DNA of 64,000 bases from Acidaminococcus sp. (GTDB lineage: Bacteria; Bacillota; Negativicutes; Acidaminococcales; Acidaminococcaceae). Positions 3,199 through 15,959 of the stretch are shown here, piece by piece. Made by a program: the position numbers and the translations under genes. The stretch is from assembly GCA_022482815.1 (NCBI GenBank), contig JAKVOM010000001.1:2438946-2502945 (forward strand), written 5' to 3'. Position 1 is the stretch's first letter, and every line of letters starts with the position of its first letter. Below the pieces are notes generated by a model that saw only the letters and a program-made list of their open reading frames with translations, had not been told where the DNA came from and did no database searches.

Positions 3199-4548
3199 TT
3201 ATACCCCACAGTGCTGCATTTTTTTCTCCTGAAGCAGCAGATGGCGGAAAAGGAAAATGCAGATAACCACAGAAACGAGGGAGCCTACGGAAGTCGCAAG
3301 TCCCATAGGGAGCAAGTTATCAGGGAAATTGACAGAGGCCCAGTAAACAAGGGGCACTCGGGCACAGGCAATGGCCGTAATATTATGAATGAAGGAATAA
3401 ATCGATTTGCCGCAGGCACAGAAATAACCGCTGAAGCTGAAATGGATGCCGGCAAACAAACAGTCAAGAATATAGCCTTTAAGATAAGGACCGCCTGCCG
3501 CAACAACAGACTCATCACCTGTAAAGAGTCCCACAAAACCATAGGCGGCAAACTGCATCAAGACAATCATGACAGCACCAAAACCAATGGCAATCTTGAT
3601 GGCATCGTAGAGAAATTCCCGGGCACGCTCCGGTTTGCCGGCTCCGATATTCTGGGCTCCCAGGGCAGAAACGGTCGAAAGCAGTGAAGACGGAACAAGA
3701 AAGATGAAGCTGATGATTTTTTCTACAATCCCGACAGCAGCCGCGTCCGTTACACCACGCTGATTGGCAATCATGGTAATAATCAGAAAAGAAATTTGGA
3801 TGAGCCCATCCTGCACGGAAATCGGCACACCAATCTTTAAAATATCCCGCATGATGCTTCCATCGAAGTGAAAATCATGCCGAGACACAGAGATGCCGAT
3901 ATTATGGGAAGTCATCACAAATAGTGAAATGGCTACACTGAAAATCTGAGCCAGCGTCGTACCGAGTGCAGCTCCGCTGGGTCCCATGTGGAAAGCTCCC
4001 ATAAAGAGGAAATCCAGAAGGATATTAACAATACAGGCAATGGCAATAAAGTATGTCGGCGTTCTTGAGTTGCCCAATCCGCGAAAAATAGAACTTACCA
4101 GGTTATATGCTGTAATAAAAGGAATTCCAAGAAAACAAATGAAAAGATAATCCGTAGTTCCCTTTACTGCTTCCGGCGGCGTCGCCATCACTCCGACAAT
4201 CCGGTCAATTTGATGTATCAACAAAATTGCCAGCACTATGGAAAGTCCCATAAAAAGCAGCACTGTATTGCCGGTGACACGCGCAGCCCGTTCCTTATTT
4301 CCGGCGCCGACAGACTGAGCAATGGATACAGTCGTCCCCATAGCGAGACCTACGAGCATAACCGTGAGCATATGCATAATCTGGCTTCCGACGGCTACGG
4401 CCGTAATACTTGCCGGCCCTTCGAACTGCCCGATGATAAAAAGATCGGCCATCCCATAAAGGGTCTGTAAAAAATAAGAAATTAAATAGGGAACGGAAAA
4501 AGCAATAATGCTTTTCCAGACGTTCCCTGTAGTAATTGCATTCGGCAT
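3199..4548 (-). CDS. MATE-family multidrug/toxin efflux transporter
   Basis: About 449 residues with a dozen hydrophobic segments and the two-fold repeat arrangement of MATE (NorM/DinF-like) cation-coupled exporters: TTGNVWKSIIAFSVPYLIS near the N terminus and QNIGAGKPERAREF after the centre, which are typical MATE sequences. It is expected in the inner membrane, exporting cationic drugs or metabolites in exchange for Na+ or H+; the substrate cannot be told. The ATG at 4572 lacks a ribosome-binding site. The ATG at 4548 (MPNAITTGN) follows AGGATGGG and fits the family, so it is preferred. It stands alone between rpsT and the AICAR formyltransferase gene. Confidence 0.9.
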   Translation of the reverse strand: MPNAITTGNVWKSIIAFSVPYLISYFLQTLYGMADLFIIGQFEGPASITAVAVGSQIMHMLTVMLVGLAMGTTVSIAQSVGAGNKERAARVTGNTVLLFMGLSIVLAILLIHQIDRIVGVMATPPEAVKGTTDYLFICFLGIPFITAYNLVSSIFRGLGNSRTPTYFIAIACIVNILLDFLFMGAFHMGPSGAALGTTLAQIFSVAISLFVMTSHNIGISVSRHDFHFDGSIMRDILKIGVPISVQDGLIQISFLIITMIANQRGVTDAAAVGIVEKIISFIFLVPSSLLSTVSALGAQNIGAGKPERAREFLYDAIKIAIGFGAVMIVLMQFAAYGFVGLFTGDESVVAAGGPYLKGYILDCLFAGIHFSFSGYFCACGKSIYSFIHNITAIACARVPLVYWASVNFPDNLLPMGLATSVGSLVSVVICIFLFRHLLLQEKKMQHCGV

Positions 4549-8704: not shown

Positions 8705-10615
8705 TTATTTCTTTTCCTTGATTTCTTTCTGCAGTTTTGCAATGAATTCGTCGGCCGGCATAGCACCGATTTCACCTTCACTGCGGCTGCGAACGGAAAC
8801 CGTACCATCGTTGACTTCCTTTTCACCGATGATGAGCATATACGGAACCTTCTTGACCTGTGCTTCACGAATCTTGTAACCGATCTTTTCATTGCGGTCG
8901 TCCAGATGAACACGGATGTTCTGAGCATCCATCTTGTCCACAATGGATTTTGCATAGTCGTTGAATTTATCGGTAATCGGCATCACACGAACTTGTTCAG
9001 GAGCCAGCCATACAGGGAATGCACCGGCATAGTGTTCGGTCAGGATACCGATGAAACGTTCAATGGATCCGTAAACAACACGGTGAATCATGACAGGACG
9101 ATGCTTCTGGCCATCTTCGCCCGTATAGGTCAGGTTGAATTTTTCAGGCAGCAGCATATCGAGCTGAATGGTACCGCACTGCCAGGTACGGCCGATGGAG
9201 TCCTTCAGATGGAAGTCAATCTTCGGGCCGTAGAAAGCGCCGTCGCCTTCGTTAATTACATAATCCAGGCCGAAGTCTTCCATAGCTTTTCTCAGGCCGT
9301 TCGTAGCCAGTTCCCAGGTAGCGTCATCGCCCATGGAGTTTTCCGGACGAGTCGACAATTCCGCATGATAACTCAGGCCGAAGGTTGCATAGACTTCGTC
9401 GAAGAGGCGAATGGTCTCCTGAATGACGTCTTCAATCTGATCCGGAGTCATGAAGATATGGGCATCATCCTGAGTGAAGCAGCGAACACGGAACAGGCCG
9501 TGCAGAGCGCCGGAGAGTTCATGTCTGTGAACCAGACCGAGTTCGCCGACACGCAGCGGCAGGTCACGATAAGAATGCGGTTCGTTAGCATAGACCAGCA
9601 TTCCGCCTGGGCAGTTCATCGGTTTGATGGCATAGTCTTCATTGTCAATCTTGGTAAAGTACATATTTTCTTTGTAGTGATCCCAGTGACCGGACATTTC
9701 CCACAGCTGGCGGTTCATAATCATCGGGGTCATGACTTCGTAATAACCGTATTTCTTATGGACTTGACGCCAGTAATCAATCAGGGTATTGCGGAGAATC
9801 ATGCCGTTCGGCAGGAAGAACGGGAAGCCGGGGCCGTAATCGCTGAGCATGAACAAGCCGAGCTGTTTGCCGAGTTTACGGTGATCGCGCTTTTCAGCTT
9901 CTTCCATCATGTGCAGGTAAGCATCCAGGTCTTCCTGGGAAGCAAAAGCAGTGCCGTAGATACGCTGCAGCATCTTGTTGTGTTCATCACCACGCCAGTA
10001 AGCACCGGCAATGCTCATCAGTTTGAAAGCCTTGACACGGCCCGTGGACGGGCAGTGAGGACCCGCGCACAGATCGGTAAAGTCGCCCTGAGTATAGGTG
10101 CTGATGACCGCATCTTCCGGCAGGTCTTCAATCAGTTCCACCTTGTACGGTTCGTCGGCTTTCTTGAACATATCCAAAGCTTCCTGTCTCGGCAGTTCCT
10201 TGCGAACCAGCGGATAGTTGGCTTTGATGATTTTGTGCATTTCTTTTTCGATAGCTTTCAGGTCATCCGGAGTGAAGACATGGTCACTGTCAAGGTCATA
10301 ATAGAACCCCTTTTCGATAGCAGGGCCAATGGCAAATTTGGTGCCCGGGAAAAGGTGTTTAATAGCCTGTGCCATCACGTGGGAAGCCGTATGGCGGATA
10401 GCATGCAGCCCCTCTTCGGAATCCGGGGTAATAAATTCTACAGAGGCATCCTTATCAAGAGTATCGGAAAGATCCTTATTGACACCATCTACTTTAGCCA
10501 GAAGAGCAGTCTTCCCAAGTTTCTGGTTCAGACTCTTGGCCAGGTCTTTTAAAGAAATCCCTTGTTCCACTTCTCTTTGGCTGCCGTCCGGCAACGACAC
10601 TTTAATCATTGACAT
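8705..10615 (-). CDS. thrS: threonyl-tRNA synthetase
   Basis: 636 residues from the ATG at 10615, which is 9 bases after GGAGG; an in-frame ATG at 10624 abuts that site and is less likely. Domains in order: TGS (about 1-62, VSLPDGSQREVEQGISLKDLA), editing domain with HTASHVMAQ (HxxxH) and the later C-containing CAGPH zinc motif, class II catalytic core (MNCPGGMLVYANEPHSYRDLP, RVRCFTQDDAHIF, WQCGTIQLDM), and the C-terminal anticodon-binding domain (VRVMPITDKFNDYA). It charges tRNA-Thr and removes mischarged Ser. A threonine T-box in its leader controls it. Confidence 0.97.
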   Translation of the reverse strand: MSMIKVSLPDGSQREVEQGISLKDLAKSLNQKLGKTALLAKVDGVNKDLSDTLDKDASVEFITPDSEEGLHAIRHTASHVMAQAIKHLFPGTKFAIGPAIEKGFYYDLDSDHVFTPDDLKAIEKEMHKIIKANYPLVRKELPRQEALDMFKKADEPYKVELIEDLPEDAVISTYTQGDFTDLCAGPHCPSTGRVKAFKLMSIAGAYWRGDEHNKMLQRIYGTAFASQEDLDAYLHMMEEAEKRDHRKLGKQLGLFMLSDYGPGFPFFLPNGMILRNTLIDYWRQVHKKYGYYEVMTPMIMNRQLWEMSGHWDHYKENMYFTKIDNEDYAIKPMNCPGGMLVYANEPHSYRDLPLRVGELGLVHRHELSGALHGLFRVRCFTQDDAHIFMTPDQIEDVIQETIRLFDEVYATFGLSYHAELSTRPENSMGDDATWELATNGLRKAMEDFGLDYVINEGDGAFYGPKIDFHLKDSIGRTWQCGTIQLDMLLPEKFNLTYTGEDGQKHRPVMIHRVVYGSIERFIGILTEHYAGAFPVWLAPEQVRVMPITDKFNDYAKSIVDKMDAQNIRVHLDDRNEKIGYKIREAQVKKVPYMLIIGEKEVNDGTVSVRSRSEGEIGAMPADEFIAKLQKEIKEKK

Positions 10616-10651
10616 AGAAAACATCCTCCTTTAGATGATTGCCAGGGAAAA

Positions 10652-10890
10652 TAAAAAAGGCCCGTCCCACATAGGGACGGGCTCATGCTCGCGGTTCCAC
10701 CCTGATTGATTCAAGTTATTGAATCCACTCGGTACCTTTAACGCAGGCGTACGATCTGTCTTACTCAGTTCGGCAGATGGTTTGAAGGTGGTTAGCTGTC
10801 ATTTGTCTGGATCGTTCTCAGCTTCCGATCTCTCTGTACAGTAGCCCTGACAGTTTGTCCTTCGCATGACCGATGGCAATTTTTGATTTG
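10652..10890 (-). promoter_or_regulatory. T-box riboswitch, threonine specifier ACC
   Basis: The leader holds the invariant T-box AGGGTGGAACCGCG (10690-10703) followed by the terminator GCCCGTCCC/GGGACGGGC plus a T-run (10652-10683). Stem I carries AGAGAGATCGG and GCTGAGAA. At its base GAAGG pairs with CCTTC, bracketing a loop whose 3' side reads CTAACCA, which puts the specifier ACC (Thr) at 10790-10792. Uncharged tRNA-Thr should favour the antiterminator. Confidence 0.93.
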
Positions 10891-10895
10891 TGTAC

Positions 10896-10923
10896 ATTGT
10901 ACCACGTAATGAACATATGTCAA
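10896..10923 (-). promoter_or_regulatory. promoter of thrS
   Basis: TTGACA (10918-10923) and TACAAT (10896-10901), 16-base spacer, directly upstream of the T-box leader. Confidence 0.8.
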
Positions 10924-11086
10924 GCGTAAAGAAATAAATTCTGTAAAAAATGTATGGATGAGATGAGGCAGCTCGCTTTCCGCCGTCCGCCGCCCGCCTG
11001 TGCAAGCACAATTGTCAAAGCAATTGTGTCTTGAATTAAATAATAAAACTGATTACACCCATCGATACCAGAATTCTTTCACATTT

Positions 11087-12250
11087 TCATTTTTCATAAG
11101 CGGGATTTTTGTAATGACGGTTCGCGAGATGCAGGGATAACCAGAAAGCATCTGCGGCACTATCATCCAGTTCCTTGTCCTGCATCGTTTTTTCACCTTT
11201 GAGATAAGGCAGAATGTAATCGATAGCAAGCTTCAGAGACCGGCCATTTGAACTTTTAGCGTCATACAAGTTGACGCCCAGTTCCTCCCCGACCCTTGCA
11301 AGTGTCAGATAAGCCCTGAGGGTCTGAAGGGAATCATCGAGCGGCCGGGTGCCTTTAAGTTCCATTGGCAGGGCGCCGTCTTCTGCAATCTGGACGGCCA
11401 TTCGCTTTTCAGGTACATCTGAAAGAATATTCTGTGCTGGTTCTTCATTTCCGGCAAAATGGGCAAAGACGCAAACCTCCGCGTCATACCAGAGGCCATA
11501 ATGGTTATCCGTGGCATCTGCTTCCTTGCCGAGCTCACTGGTAAGCAGCCAGTCCGAGTACGCTCCAAACCAGTGCTGATAGGACTCCCATTCTTCCTTA
11601 CTGCAGCAGTCCCGTAAGAGATACAAGGCATCCACGACATCAATCAATTTTACCGTTTCCATAATCCCCGTACTCTGACCTTCAAACCGGCCCGGTATCA
11701 GGTGGGCATAAGAAAGCCGCGGATTCATCCTTGTGGTACCATCAATGAACCAAGCCCTCGTCAAAGCAAGCGCCCGCTCCGCATAGGCTTTCCGGCCTGT
11801 CATCGCATACCCTCGTGCAAGGTCCTTTGCGGTATCCGCCATCGTGACGAGCCGTCTGGCATCATAGCGCGTTTCATCCCATTTTTCCGGATTCATTTCT
11901 TCCTTCCGTTTGACATAGGAAGTGCTGCCGGAAAAAGCGGGATTTGGCCGGTAATCCTCAGCAAGACTCGTATAATCGCGGCTGTCTCCGCTTGGAGGCA
12001 GCACCTCCTTATCCGTAATGAGAGGAATGAGTTCCTGCATTCGTTTCTCCGCTGCGGCAATCATTTCATTTTTTGTACCATAACAAGAAATCACTCTGCT
12101 GCCCGCTATGGCCGTCAGTTCGGATTTATCCTGCCAAATACCCTGTCCGTTTGAAGAGGGCGGTATCACCCTGGAAACAAATCGATAAAGCAGCACACAC
12201 AAAACCGCTCCCAGCACGCAGATCATTACTCCATAGACGAATCGTTTCAT
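11087..12250 (-). CDS. membrane-anchored alginate-lyase-like protein (PL5-type fold), hypothetical
   Basis: 387 residues. An N-terminal hydrophobic segment (about 5-25, VYGVMICVLGAVLCVLLYRF) acts as anchor or signal. The rest is an alpha-helical barrel-type domain resembling the alginate lyase family (PF05426-like): NPRLSYAHLIPGRFEGQSTGIMET, the DNHYGLWYD block in the place of the family's NNH motif, and DGALPMELKGTRPL. Similar proteins cleave uronic-acid polysaccharides in the periplasm, but no alginate genes are near and the true substrate is unknown. The stop of the upstream P1 peptidase gene is 7 bases away, so the two are probably co-transcribed. Confidence 0.7.
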   Translation of the reverse strand: MKRFVYGVMICVLGAVLCVLLYRFVSRVIPPSSNGQGIWQDKSELTAIAGSRVISCYGTKNEMIAAAEKRMQELIPLITDKEVLPPSGDSRDYTSLAEDYRPNPAFSGSTSYVKRKEEMNPEKWDETRYDARRLVTMADTAKDLARGYAMTGRKAYAERALALTRAWFIDGTTRMNPRLSYAHLIPGRFEGQSTGIMETVKLIDVVDALYLLRDCCSKEEWESYQHWFGAYSDWLLTSELGKEADATDNHYGLWYDAEVCVFAHFAGNEEPAQNILSDVPEKRMAVQIAEDGALPMELKGTRPLDDSLQTLRAYLTLARVGEELGVNLYDAKSSNGRSLKLAIDYILPYLKGEKTMQDKELDDSAADAFWLSLHLANRHYKNPAYEK

Positions 12251-12257
12251 GGCAGAA

Positions 12258-13205
12258 TTATCTCAAATCACGGTAGGCAGGACGTCCGCCCATGGCTTCT
12301 GCGGATTTTACGGCATCCAGGATAGCAAGACGAATTGCCTCTTCGGCCATGTACCCTACCGTATCGACGGAAACTTTCACATTACCGGCCGCCATGGTAA
12401 AGACCGTGTCCCCATCCATCGTTGTATGGACGGGACGAATGGCCCTGGCATAACCATCGTGCGCCATGCCGCTGACAGCCTTGCATTCCGCCTTGTTCAG
12501 GACAGCATTTGTAATCACACAGGCAATCGACGTATTGCCGCCGGAAAGATTCTTGTATTCTCCAAGAAGCAGATCCGGAGAGGAAAGCAGCGTCTTATCA
12601 TCATCAGCCAGAGCTCCCGCAAGAACCGTTTCACCGTCATACACCTCACCGCAGGCATTAACAGCTATGTAGGCACCAACATGGAGACCGTTCTTTCCCT
12701 CCAGTTCAGCATAGCCGGCCCCGCTCTTCATACAGTGTTCAAAGCCGCCGAGTTTTCCAACCGTGGCTCCGGTACCGGCGCCATAGCAGCCCACAGGAAA
12801 TTCCGAAGAAGCCTTCGACGCTGCTGCAAAGCCCATAGCTATATCCGGATAGGACTTATAATCACCGATAGCAAGGTCAAACAACACCGCACCACACACA
12901 ATGGGAACTACAGCTTCGCCCAATTTAAAACCGATTTTTTGCTGTGCCAGGTACCTCATAACCCCGCAGTCTGCTTCCAAGCCAAAAGAAGAACCTCCGG
13001 TAAGGACTACCGCATTGATTTGCTGGACCGTCTTTTCGGGACTCAAAAGATCCGTTTCCCGCGTTCCGGGTGCACAGCCCCTCACATCCACACCGGCAAA
13101 GGCACCTTCCCCGGGCGCCAGGATTGCCGTTACACCGGATAAGCCTTGCCTATCTTCCGCCGTCCCGATACGAAAACCGGGGACATGAATTGTTCTTTTC
13201 TCCAT
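12258..13205 (-). CDS. P1 family (DmpA/BapA-type) aminopeptidase
   Basis: 315 residues from ATG at 13205 behind GGAGGATC; an in-frame ATG at 13244 has no such site. The family marks are VLTGGSSFGLEADCGVMRYL, GCYGAGTGATVGK and the self-processing site GGNTSIACVITNA; the Asn-Thr bond is the expected autoproteolysis point, making Thr the N-terminal nucleophile. Family members are homomeric peptidases cleaving N-terminal amino acids or beta-peptides. No signal peptide is seen, so it should be cytoplasmic. It lies just upstream of the alginate-lyase-like gene; a shared job is not evident. Confidence 0.88.
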   Translation of the reverse strand: MEKRTIHVPGFRIGTAEDRQGLSGVTAILAPGEGAFAGVDVRGCAPGTRETDLLSPEKTVQQINAVVLTGGSSFGLEADCGVMRYLAQQKIGFKLGEAVVPIVCGAVLFDLAIGDYKSYPDIAMGFAAASKASSEFPVGCYGAGTGATVGKLGGFEHCMKSGAGYAELEGKNGLHVGAYIAVNACGEVYDGETVLAGALADDDKTLLSSPDLLLGEYKNLSGGNTSIACVITNAVLNKAECKAVSGMAHDGYARAIRPVHTTMDGDTVFTMAAGNVKVSVDTVGYMAEEAIRLAILDAVKSAEAMGGRPAYRDLR

Positions 13206-14153
13206 GGTTGATCCTCCGACAAAAAACTTTGACAGCGATTCCATATCCTGCGGCGTTATGGCAGCTGCCGTTACATCCGAATTTTTTATTTTTCAATACT
13301 CGTTAATTATAACACGAATCAATTTTACTTCAGTTGTCATCCGCATATGGTCATATCGTTTTTCTGTCAAAACTACACTAAATCAGCATAACCAGTAAAT
13401 TAGAAAAATCAAAAAGTATCCTTCACCATAAAACGGTTATTCCTTCCAACTTAATGGAGAAAGTTAGAGCGAAATACCAAACCTAAAGTGAAAACACCGC
13501 ATTAGCTATTGCTTAAAGACGAATGCGATAGTAAATGTGCCCGTGCTTAAAATTTCCGCATAAGCTATTTTCATTTAATAGAGATGGAAAATATCCTGTG
13601 GAATTCCCACTAAACGGCATCTCAAAAATTAAACTAACAAATATGCTCCGCAAAAGCACAAGTTCGGATAACACTACTCTTGTCATTTTTTCCTACTTCA
13701 GCCTTACAGCTTATAATTTTTCTAGATTTAGCAAGTTTTGCAACTTCATCGAAAGACCCCTTTCATCGTCAAGGCCTCTGGTCTGGTGTTGTTTTCTGGA
13801 ACTTTTCGGATTATCAGAGCTCTTGGGGCTTTCAGTGCACGGGTGCACCTTCTTCTCTTTATGGGTGAGTCTCAATTTGGTCTTTTTGGTTTGTAGCACT
13901 CGTAAAGCCATTATGAAAGATACTATAAGCAATATTAAATTACGTAAAATTTAATTATTAGAAAAGGCACTCATGAAACTTATCAATACAGCAATGTCAT
14001 AAATAAGCTCATTCAGACTTTTCCTCCTATTTGTAAAATCGTCTTAATTTTTGTACCGTATTTCACAGTCAAATAAGTTTTCCTGCATTTTAAGACCATC
14101 TTTCTTAACTTTAATTTCAAGAGATATAAATTTTACTAGGATTTAAAGATAAA
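13206..14153. other. AT-rich gene-poor stretch containing the left part of the ssrA element
   Basis: No convincing gene. Reading frames here (for example 13535-13954 plus strand) lack ribosome-binding sites and family features. A minus-strand frame at 13711-13932 gives a short hydrophobic start (LLIVSFIMALRVL) and a basic tail, but begins at TTG without a ribosome site. An AGGAGG at about 14022-14027 on the minus strand is followed only by a 21-codon frame with CTG in start position. Base composition is clearly lower in GC than the housekeeping genes, as in transferred DNA. Confidence 0.5.
13553..13586. other. left att-like repeat (decayed ssrA 3' end copy)
   Basis: Contains ATAAGCTATTTTCATTT (13560-13576) identical to the right copy, preceded by TTTCCGC and followed by AATAGAGATG, where ssrA has GGTGGAGATG. 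Confidence 0.7.
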
Positions 14154-14208
14154 TTCATAATTTATGAAAAAATTTGTTGTAACTGCCAGAAATTTCATGT
14201 ATTATGAA
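14154..14208 (+). promoter_or_regulatory. promoter and two palindromic operators of the immR-like gene
   Basis: Promoter TTGTAA (14177-14182), 17 bases, TATTAT (14200-14205). Two 15-bp palindromes of one type, TTCATAATTTATGAA (14154-14168) and TTCATGTATTATGAA (14194-14208), are centred 40 bp (about four helical turns) apart. The second covers the -10 box and the first lies upstream of the -35. This is the layout of cooperative autorepression by the adjacent XRE protein. Confidence 0.75.
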
Positions 14209-14233
14209 GGTAAAATCAAAAGGAGGTTTCCAA

Positions 14234-14641
14234 ATGAATGCTGCTAATATTAAGCTTTACATCGCTTCGCAAATTAAAAAGTATCGAAAATTAGCTGGGC
14301 TTACGCAAAAAGAGTTGGGTGAGAAGATTGGGGTGAAACACAATACGATTTCATCATACGAATCCGGTACGAATGAGCCGGAACAGGACATGTTGTTTAA
14401 GATTGCAAATGCCCTCGGTGTGAGCATTAATGACTTGTTTCCTCCTACAGAAAATCCGCGGTTCGGGCAAGGTATACCAAGTTCCAAAATAGGAGATGAT
14501 ACGTCCGATCTGATGCGTTCCCTCTCGAATTCTCCAAAGCTTTTAAAATTAGCCAGAAATGCAGCAGACCTCAAAGAAGATAAACTAGATCAACTTAATG
14601 CATTGATTGATTTTTTTAAGAATGGAGGAAAAAATGCTTAA
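14234..14641 (+). CDS. XRE-family repressor (ImmR-like)
   Basis: 135 residues from ATG at 14234, which follows AAAAGGAGG; a frame extension to 14204 has no ribosome site and would run over the operator. The helix-turn-helix lies at about residues 9-63 (IASQIKKYRKLAGLTQKELGEKIG, NTISSYESGTNEPEQDMLF, ALGVSINDLF). The C-terminal part (LMRSLSNSPKLLKLARNAADLKEDKLDQLNALIDFF) is predicted helical and may dimerise. It overlaps the ImmA gene by 8 bases, so the two are translationally coupled. By analogy with ICEBs1 it keeps the element quiet until cleaved; here its targets beyond its own promoter are unknown. Confidence 0.9.
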   Translation: MNAANIKLYIASQIKKYRKLAGLTQKELGEKIGVKHNTISSYESGTNEPEQDMLFKIANALGVSINDLFPPTENPRFGQGIPSSKIGDDTSDLMRSLSNSPKLLKLARNAADLKEDKLDQLNALIDFFKNGGKNA

Positions 14642-15434
14642 TAGTAAACGACGTCATGCAATCATAAAAGAAGCGTACCGAACGTTAGAAATATTGGGCA
14701 TAGAATCTTTCCCGATTTCATTATTCGATTTAAAAAAGTTACTTCCCAATAAGTTAAACATCATTGTTGGCTCCTATTCGGAGTATGCACGAAGCGCTAA
14801 CCTTTATCCTGGAGATGTTGCCAACGCTGTCGGATCACATGATGCTGTAACTTTTTGCAAAGGTAAAGATGTCCTTATGATGTATAACGATTCATGTATG
14901 CGTCCTCGGGAAAGACAACTTTGGAGCCTCAGTCATGAATTAGGGCATTGCCGTTTAAAGCACTTTAGCCTTTTGGCCGATTATCAGAGCAAGGGGCTTC
15001 AATGCAGTGACGAAATGAAAAAAGATATCGAATTAGAAGCGGACTTCTTCGCTCGAAATTTTTTAGCACCTCTAGAAATCGGATTAGCACTGATTGGGAT
15101 ATTTCCAAATTTCCGTCCAGATAGGTATCTCATCTTTAGTTTCCATCGTTTCTTTTTTGGCTTAAGTGGTGAAGCATCATACAACTGCGCCTTGGATTAT
15201 GCTAAAGGAAAAATAGAAAATTACTTATGCCCCGGCGTGATAGATAGGTTTCAGCCATATATAGATAAAGTGCGTGCTTGCTACGATGGAGCCCAAATTA
15301 ACGCCCTTTTATCCCGAGAAAGCGTAGCCTACGACTGTGCTCGGAAGGCTTATTATAATAAGCTAAATGGTAAATTCTCATTGGCAGCGCGCCCATCTCG
15401 TGTGGGAGATGTTCTTATGAACATGTGCCATTAG
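14634..15434 (+). CDS. ImmA/IrrE-family metalloprotease
   Basis: 266 residues from ATG at 14634 (GGAGG five bases upstream, inside the end of the repressor gene). The zinc motif is LSHELGHCRLKH (HExxH), followed by ELEADFFARNFLAP, where the Glu supplies the third ligand. The C-terminal half (about 150-266) has no motif I recognise. Such proteases cleave the partner XRE repressor after DNA damage or quorum signals. Coupling to the repressor gene supports that role. The distance from stop to the right att-like site is only about 140 bases, leaving no room for an integrase gene. Confidence 0.9.
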   Translation: MLNSKRRHAIIKEAYRTLEILGIESFPISLFDLKKLLPNKLNIIVGSYSEYARSANLYPGDVANAVGSHDAVTFCKGKDVLMMYNDSCMRPRERQLWSLSHELGHCRLKHFSLLADYQSKGLQCSDEMKKDIELEADFFARNFLAPLEIGLALIGIFPNFRPDRYLIFSFHRFFFGLSGEASYNCALDYAKGKIENYLCPGVIDRFQPYIDKVRACYDGAQINALLSRESVAYDCARKAYYNKLNGKFSLAARPSRVGDVLMNMCH

Positions 15435-15528
15435 TGAAGAAAGAGTGAAAAAGTGGACAACTAGTGCGCAAGCTTTGCCCGATGGGACGTATTAATACGT
15501 ACTCATACGGAATCGCAGAAAACCAGAA

Positions 15529-15568
15529 ACACCGCATCAGTACTGTATTAAATACTAATGCGGTGTTA
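15529..15568 (+). terminator. hairpin after the ImmA gene
   Basis: AACACCGCAT and ATGCGGTGTT form a strong stem, extended by AGTA/TACT, around an AT loop. There is no clear T-run, so it may be a terminator or a structural site of the element; part of the stem sequence recurs near the left end (about 13497-13507). Confidence 0.45.
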
Positions 15569-15574
15569 TACGTA

Positions 15575-15621
15575 CTTATACGGAAATTTTCCGTATAAGC
15601 TATTTTCATTTGGTGGAGATG
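15575..15621. other. right att-like site with inverted core arms
   Basis: CTTATACGGAAA and its exact inverse TTTCCGTATAAG, separated by one T (15575-15599), resemble a tyrosine-recombinase core. TACGTACTTATACGG here and TACGTACTCATACGG at about 15496-15510 form a direct repeat that could be an arm-type site. The 3' end of ssrA lies at the right edge. Confidence 0.65.
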
Positions 15622-15959
15622 AGGGGAGTCGAACCCCTGTCCGAAAGCATTGCAATGCAACTTTCTCCGAGCGCATCCAACATACTTTATTTCGCAGTAT
15701 CATCGCCTATTGGCGGGCTAATCAACCACTATCTCGATGGATTTCCCACACCGGCCTCCGAGAATTGACTGATGGGTATCCTGCAAGTGTCGTTCACGAT
15801 TCTTCAGCAGGAGTGAAGAAAGGGAACGTTAGCAATTTAAGCTGCTAAAGCGTAAGAATCGTCTGCGTTTATAACGCGTTTCCACCGTTTAATGGGGTTG
15901 ATGGAATCCCAGCTCGCTTATCACACCACATCTACCCCCGTCGAAACCAGTACATCCCC
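15611..15959 (-). ncRNA. ssrA: transfer-messenger RNA (tmRNA)
   Basis: On the minus strand the RNA starts GGGGATGTACTGGTTTCGAC and ends GGTTCGACTCCCCTCATCTCCACCA-like (T-loop, acceptor stem, encoded CCA). GGGGATG pairs with CATCTCC to make the tRNA-like end. The tag reading frame ends at TAA (15837-15839) and encodes ...ADDSYALAA. Together with SmpB it rescues stalled ribosomes and marks the product for proteolysis. Its 3' end carries the att-like repeat of the neighbouring element, a common integration site. Confidence 0.96.

Follow-up and report, generated by a model that had tools for sequence, protein, structure and literature searches.

A probable temperate-phage-type remnant of 2 kb with an intact repressor/ImmA-type operon behind ssrA in Acidaminococcus

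We have analysed a window of 64 kb, part of a single-contig 3.06-Mb genome of the gut bacterium Acidaminococcus, and focus here on a block of ~2 kb of AT-rich DNA located directly behind ssrA, the gene of transfer-messenger RNA (tmRNA). This block is, in our judgement and from its sequence, probably the stump of an integrative element of the temperate-phage type (prophage or satellite) that would have entered the 3' end of ssrA through the action of an integrase. A preliminary description of this DNA had proposed, as one of two options, a decayed element that kept its immunity module, and this is the one borne out here: we find two ends of the kind left by integration at attachment (att) sites, a broken gene at the left end, an empty integrase slot, and an intact operon, encoding a repressor and an ImmA-type metalloprotease, that is preceded by paired palindromes. 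That the gene pair was kept for immunity, by analogy with known pairs, is a tentative proposal, to which we give somewhat less than even weight.

The block is bracketed by a 95-bp direct repeat (Table 1), whose copies are identical at 69 of 95 positions and agree at 52 of the 78 positions outside an exact 17-bp core, so that the similarity extends beyond the core. A chance origin of these repeats was ruled out, as the next-best ungapped matches to the right copy anywhere in the window reach only 47/95 (forward strand) and 46/95 (reverse strand). Sixteen bases of the core (TAAGCTATTTTCATTT) occur exactly at two places of the genome, both at the block, and with two mismatches at three others; a pattern search of the whole 3.06-Mb genome found no further exact copy. 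The GC content of the block is 0.379, versus 0.495 and 0.473 in the 5 kb to its left and right. The right copy reaches 11 bases into the 3' end of the tmRNA, which is the sole match of an Rfam scan, and the left copy is read as the displaced original 3' end of ssrA. The preliminary description had already reported the repeats with their 17-bp core around 2 kb of AT-rich DNA, the overlap of one copy with the tmRNA and the perfect 12-bp inverted arms in the right copy, and all of these were recovered. It also mentioned a 15-bp direct repeat nearby; a direct repeat does exist there, but it measures 18 bp with one mismatch (15495-15512 and 15568-15585), while the 15-bp repeat of the right end is in fact inverted and forms the hairpin beside ssrA.

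Going outward from the tmRNA, the inverted repeat is succeeded by a hairpin (ACACCGCA...TGCGGTGT), and beyond a spacer lie two arm-like words of the right end, TTGCGCAC and TTGTCCAC, at an 11-bp spacing. We call these words arms because the same spacing recurs between tRNA-Ala and an integrase in two relatives (G006 and G007): both carry TTGCCAAC words at this 11-bp spacing after ssrA, and 11-bp-spaced words also between tRNA-Ala(CGC) and the gene of a 397-aa integrase. They are predicted to be integrase-binding arms. Only ~0.08 such pairs are expected per 64 kb of random window-like sequence (100 resamplings), and the window has one. Over all the loci compared, the arm pattern gave 42 rows from overlapping loci, 13 distinct places by our own count, 11 of which adjoin an RNA gene, an att copy or an integrase and two lie elsewhere, in a set of loci chosen partly for their position beside these very features.

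A profile of the whole end module, built from three of its own copies, was searched in 59 genomes of the family. Matches at E < 1e-30 were restricted to three genomes, that is, the one studied here, the ssrA of an uncultured Acidaminococcus (G001) and the tRNA-Ser(UGA) of A. intestini (G003), the same three copies from which the profile was made. Being found behind two different RNA genes, the module appears as would be expected of the end of a mobile element. Weak matches (E 2.8e-4 to 0.1) were obtained in six further genomes, with the hairpin only except in G080 and G009; the best of them, in G080 (another genus), lies after a tRNA-Ser and includes a pair of TTGCACAC words, and no arm pair could be seen by eye in G009. 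The hairpin pattern was present in three of nine Acidaminococcus genomes (reversed control, 0/9). Among the viral contigs there were no matches to the end-module or ssrA-junction patterns, and the 54 stretches with the arm pattern are by eye mostly chance or coding. One viral contig (L240, 7816-7891) has a weak match to the module profile (E 1.9e-4) around a AAGCTTGCGCAC word. In an uncultured Acidaminococcus (L046, 14608-14975) there are two end modules in tandem behind ssrA, the outer one weaker (E 3.7e-4), a possible trace of two successive insertions.

At its other extreme, the left end, the block shows homology to the corresponding end of an island at the ssrA of A. intestini, although the arm pair is no longer recognisable here. 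It contains a degraded copy of a 69-aa protein gene, with between 2 and 9 frameshifting indels (depending on the gap cost) and 64-70% identity to the intact copy. The preliminary description gave the repressor and the HExxH protease as the only genes, which is correct for the intact ones and overlooked this pseudogene. A partial copy of the same gene (62% over 37 aa) was found in G001, 4.8 kb from ssrA. Outside Acidaminococcus, relatives of the left-end gene were retrieved from six contigs, in three of which a terminase gene is found within 1.2 kb (a terminase small subunit in L245, from Mesosutterella, a large subunit behind an HNH gene in L248, and a gpA-type protein in L250). From their sequence, these neighbours point to phages. 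A 12-bp match between immA and the left end falls inside the pseudogene and was treated as chance.

Inside these ends, a helix-turn-helix (HTH) repressor gene (HTH_3 domain, E 2.8e-20) and a downstream gene for an HExxH metalloprotease overlap by 8 nt in one operon. The protease keeps the HELGH motif plus the downstream glutamate of its relatives in the alignment; the term ImmA-type is used here as a similarity claim, derived from PHROG, capP and this alignment. Both proteins match phage families and three phage records, at less than 31% identity. The motif TTCATNNNTTATGAA occurs at two places in the window, both before the repressor gene (0.02 chance matches expected), where the two palindromes flank and overlap a TTGTAA-17-TATTAT site, and elsewhere among 251 loci it appears just once each in two viral contigs. 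The natural reading of these paired palindromes is an autoregulated repressor, which would bind both of them.

Gene order in relatives also indicates what has been lost. In all five phage and plasmid relatives of the ImmA-type protein, a small gene precedes immA on the same strand (a repressor or HTH regulator in four, a hypothetical in one), and in four of them an integrase follows on the same strand, directly or after one or two genes; the fifth (Javan235) has no integrase in the stretch shown. In the window only 18 bp separate the stop codon of immA from the arm-like words, so that the integrase is missing from its usual slot. The preliminary description of the block as integrase-less was confirmed by the list of open reading frames and by a tblastn search with 21 integrases (picked by motif from 33 loci), neither of which revealed any significant trace of an integrase in the block (best E 0.14).

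Table 1. Features of the block behind ssrA (window coordinates)
Feature	Position	Strand	Remarks
Left (distal) att-type repeat: core and decayed hairpin, without arms	13492..13586	.	repeat comparison
17-bp core, left copy	13560..13576	.	
Element left end, homologous to left end of A. intestini ssrA island	13600..13918	-	alignment score 204.5 (best of 300 shuffles, 94)
Pseudogene of 69-aa protein, frameshifted	13674..13871	-	
Operator-like palindrome TTCATAATTTATGAA	14154..14168	.	
Promoter-like site TTGTAA-17-TATTAT	14177..14205	+	
Operator-like palindrome TTCATGTATTATGAA	14194..14208	.	
HTH (Xre/ImmR-type) repressor gene, 135 aa	14234..14641	+	HTH_3; AAGGAGG ahead of ATG
ImmA-type metalloprotease gene, 266 aa	14634..15434	+	HELGH encoded at 14934-14948
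Two integrase-arm-like words, 11 bp apart	15453..15471	-	absent from the preliminary description
Right att-type repeat, overlapping tmRNA 3' end	15527..15621	.	
Hairpin, terminator-like, behind ssrA	15528..15567	-	15-bp inverted repeat
Perfect 12-bp inverted repeat	15575..15599	.	arms 15575-15586 / 15588-15599
17-bp core, right copy	15595..15611	.	
ssrA (tmRNA)	15611..15959	-	

A different explanation would be that the pair is a host regulator, a toxin-antitoxin or a defence switch of the CapH/CapP type that merely adjoins ssrA. The PADLOC profiles capH (E 1e-11) and capP (E 7.6e-10) do match, as do many further HTH profiles, and a pair of HTH protein and metalloprotease in Brucella is presented as a toxin-antitoxin in part of its published description. 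We nevertheless regard this as very improbable, given that the pair is bracketed by att-type ends, that five phage or plasmid relatives have it beside phage-type genes, and that the four neighbours scanned (an alginate-lyase family protein, an S58 peptidase, a glutamate symporter and an XerD-like recombinase) include no recognisable defence or toxin gene. The resemblance to CapH/CapP lies in the profile similarity of both proteins, while neither CBASS (cyclic-oligonucleotide-based antiphage signalling system) genes nor any other defence operon could be recognised beside the pair in the window.

We compared the ssrA surroundings in nine Acidaminococcus genomes, from a collection with one genome per species. 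The DNA behind ssrA differs among them (by eye), except for two sharing pairs: G006 and G007 have in common approximately the first 200 bases, and the genome studied here (G000) and G001 the end module. These same four genomes are the ones with an arm pair within 400 bp of ssrA. Within 10 kb of ssrA, integrase-family genes are limited to XerD-like open frames of 304 aa, in five of the nine genomes, with the view of the 5' side limited by contig ends in G001, G005 and G006. A DNA search with the whole block found the end module alone, in one of the eight other genomes of the genus. A search of the G001 stretch for a second ssrA core, at 67% identity over 30 bases, detected none.

The most informative relative is A. 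intestini (G003, locus L044), where a second ssrA 3' end is found at ~3627-3710, in the same orientation as ssrA itself (11023-11369), with ~63 bases identical by eye from inside the tmRNA into the hairpin. These repeats bracket an island of ~7.3 kb that has, inward of the left copy, a paired arm (GGTGCGCACTTAGTGCGCAA) and the intact 69-aa gene; its other genes encode a dehydrogenase, RidA, PhzF, a GntR/aminotransferase regulator, an FMN reductase and a group II intron protein. No integrase-family match was found in this island and the repressor/ImmA pair is absent from it. The preliminary description would have taken repeats at ssrA without the gene pair as evidence against the element; this situation does exist in A. 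intestini and shows that the pair does not define the element, although the block itself may still be one. In the same locus, the gene of the group II intron protein lies between ssrA and the island (~9150-11000), and the intron seems to begin immediately after the hairpin of ssrA.

Such islands could also be taken as living non-autonomous elements that preserve their ends, can exchange their cargo and are moved, in trans or by accretion, through the integrase of another element, similar to a cis-mobilizable element (CIME) or a satellite island. Three Acidaminococcus genomes share portions of these ends at ssrA but differ in cargo, none of the three stretches having shown an integrase-family gene, and an integrase locus at a tRNA-Ala of G006 agrees with the ssrA-side core at 21 of 28 positions, the run TTTTCATTTGGTGGAGA among them. 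Integrase-less islands at ssrA are also described in Dehalococcoides, where part of the published account suggests that they are cis-mobilizable (PMC3146451). However, in the genome studied here the left end and its gene have decayed (the gene is partial also in G001). Two Xer-like genes aside, two integrases are present in this genome, at a tRNA-Ala and a tRNA-Ser, and the stretches around them contain neither the arm pair nor the 16-bp core. The other option of the preliminary description, a minimal satellite mobilised by the integrase of another element and protecting the site, finds little support in these two loci, and we consider a living non-autonomous element unlikely. Its wider version, in which the ssrA of Acidaminococcus would host a whole family of islands lacking an integrase, with conserved ends and interchangeable cargo, that are kept and moved in trans, the smallest being a bare immunity switch that guards the site, seems to us decidedly unlikely. 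Beside an integrase locus of G006 (L156, 4448-4560), the nine bases after tRNA-Ala(GGC) (AAATGAAAA) are those that follow ssrA in the window, and a hairpin with the arms CCGCAT/ATGCGG comes next.

Alternatively, there might have been a single ancestral insertion at ssrA, later refilled by unrelated genes, the repressor/ImmA pair being a late arrival from outside the original element. The ends are common to several species at the same gene, and the end module without the rest of the block is what the whole-block search found in a relative. The pair has stayed open over 1.2 kb next to a 0.2-kb gene with at least two frameshifts, and this contrast in the sequence suggests retention, although a later arrival would account for it as well. 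Against refilling, the pair lies where a lysogeny module beside the integrase end would be expected and points the same way, and we hold a late arrival to be quite unlikely.

The reading as a phage-type stump has itself several points against it, which we gather here. There is no clean empty site among the genomes compared, and in the nearest relative (ssrA 95% identical) ssrA is followed by different DNA. The S58 gene flanking the block was detected in only two of the nine genomes of the genus, in the other one on a different contig, and was not found in the remaining seven. The left-end gene has no match among 50,697 phage records, its PHROG matches are marginal (best E 0.0084), and three of its six outside contigs showed no terminase next to it (a DNA methylase was recognised in L251 and nothing in L247 and L249). 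The ImmA-type protein falls under the Pfam cut-off of Peptidase_M78 (18.1 vs 22 bits) and, at 266 aa, is shorter than its phage relatives, the aligned ones having 358-371 aa and zinc-ribbon-like tails with the exception of G051 (205 aa); its tail matches nothing and the protein may have been shortened. The region has no excess of promoter-like sites over shuffles (8 vs 6.8). Selection on the pair is unmeasurable because no close relative of it was found: among 100 genome-contig and nine viral-contig pattern stretches no close ImmA relative was confirmed, and 60 other genomes gave two distant matches, none of them in the eight genus-mates. First-look and pattern searches of this kind may overlook distant relatives. 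Finally, a phage, a satellite and a conjugative element are indistinguishable from 2 kb. A fusion of the ImmA C-terminus to an integrase was considered and found no support in a Pfam-type scan and an integrase comparison, and a single-sequence AlphaFold2 model of the protein was poor (mean predicted local distance difference test score, 36.5).

If the block is a phage-type stump, the element would have integrated at ssrA and supplied, with its right end, an ssrA 3' end of its own together with a hairpin and integrase-binding arms, while the original 3' end with its hairpin would have been pushed 2 kb away, to become the left copy and then decay. Deletions may subsequently have taken the integrase, located downstream of immA in relatives, and the rest of the element, sparing the broken left-end gene. 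The right end would have been kept because ssrA needs the 3' end and hairpin that the element supplied. Lacking an integrase and with its left end decayed, the block is not expected to excise on its own. By analogy with known ImmR/ImmA pairs, the repressor would bind both palindromes and limit its own promoter, it would silence related incoming elements that share the operators, and ImmA would cut it after DNA damage. The direction of integration, arm binding, repression, cleavage and immunity are steps that we infer. The block is mostly an ordinary product of decay, with a slight indication that it paid to keep the switch. The case also suggests that ssrA collects leftover element ends in this genus, since an incoming end that supplies the tmRNA 3' end and terminator is hard to lose.

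Phage satellites such as the phage-inducible chromosomal islands are defined by their own integrase, regulators, packaging-interference genes and dependence on a helper, and the block differs from them in having neither an integrase nor an intact packaging gene. We place it rather with other kinds already on record, namely CIMEs, grounded prophages and integrase-less ssrA islands. CIMEs, as defined in part of the source, have lost the genes for integration and transfer and retain attL and attR (PMC5704250), which resembles the att-type repeats on both sides of the block (17-bp core, arm-like words at the right end), at an RNA gene and with no integrase or transfer gene. In the block, att function is predicted, a derivation from an integrative and conjugative (ICE) or an integrative and mobilizable element would be putative, and the left-end gene, with terminases near its relatives in three of six contigs, points to phages. 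Grounded or cryptic prophages share with the block the retained lysogeny switch, the similarity to phage genes at an integration site and, judged by sequence, the lost excision function, but here just ~2 kb are left and there is no intact structural gene. Superinfection immunity as their benefit is a published hypothesis, put forward in part of one account (PMC6379469). The ImmR/ImmA-type pairs of ICEBs1, TnSmu1 and pneumococcal prophages, as described in sections of two reports, show the same arrangement, a small HTH repressor and after it an HExxH protease, control their ICEs and prophages and respond to DNA damage (PMC10233336, PMC12637031), whereas at this locus no element is left to control. 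The Dehalococcoides islands, in the part of the account mentioned above, lie at ssrA without an integration module and have an ssrA fragment at the far boundary, as does the block; they differ in using serine recombinases and inserting in the T-loop region, versus arm-type repeats and a repeat that extends 11 bases into the tmRNA here. In a limited literature search we met no published account of this ssrA locus. The block would be a very small natural case of the grounded-prophage idea, with mobility functions lost or broken and the operon and its palindromes intact, and if immunity were demonstrated it would provide a test of whether bacteria keep phage switches for protection.

Some minor observations concern the surroundings and the rest of this genome. 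In the closest relative, the alginate-lyase-family and S58 peptidase genes that adjoin the block here (11087-13244) occur together on another contig. At tRNA-Ala(GGC) (L051, C1:435000-453000), an integrase-bearing element lies next to two similar autotransporter-like genes; a relaxase-like gene and genes of type I restriction were made out in it by eye. A small element at tRNA-Ser(CGA) (L052, C1:1353000-1372000) consists of an HTH gene, a gene for a HELAH protein, two small genes and an integrase, followed by the tRNA; the first two were named by eye, the M78 profile having reported nothing in this genome, and with its phage gene order this element is a possible intact counterpart of the stranded pair.

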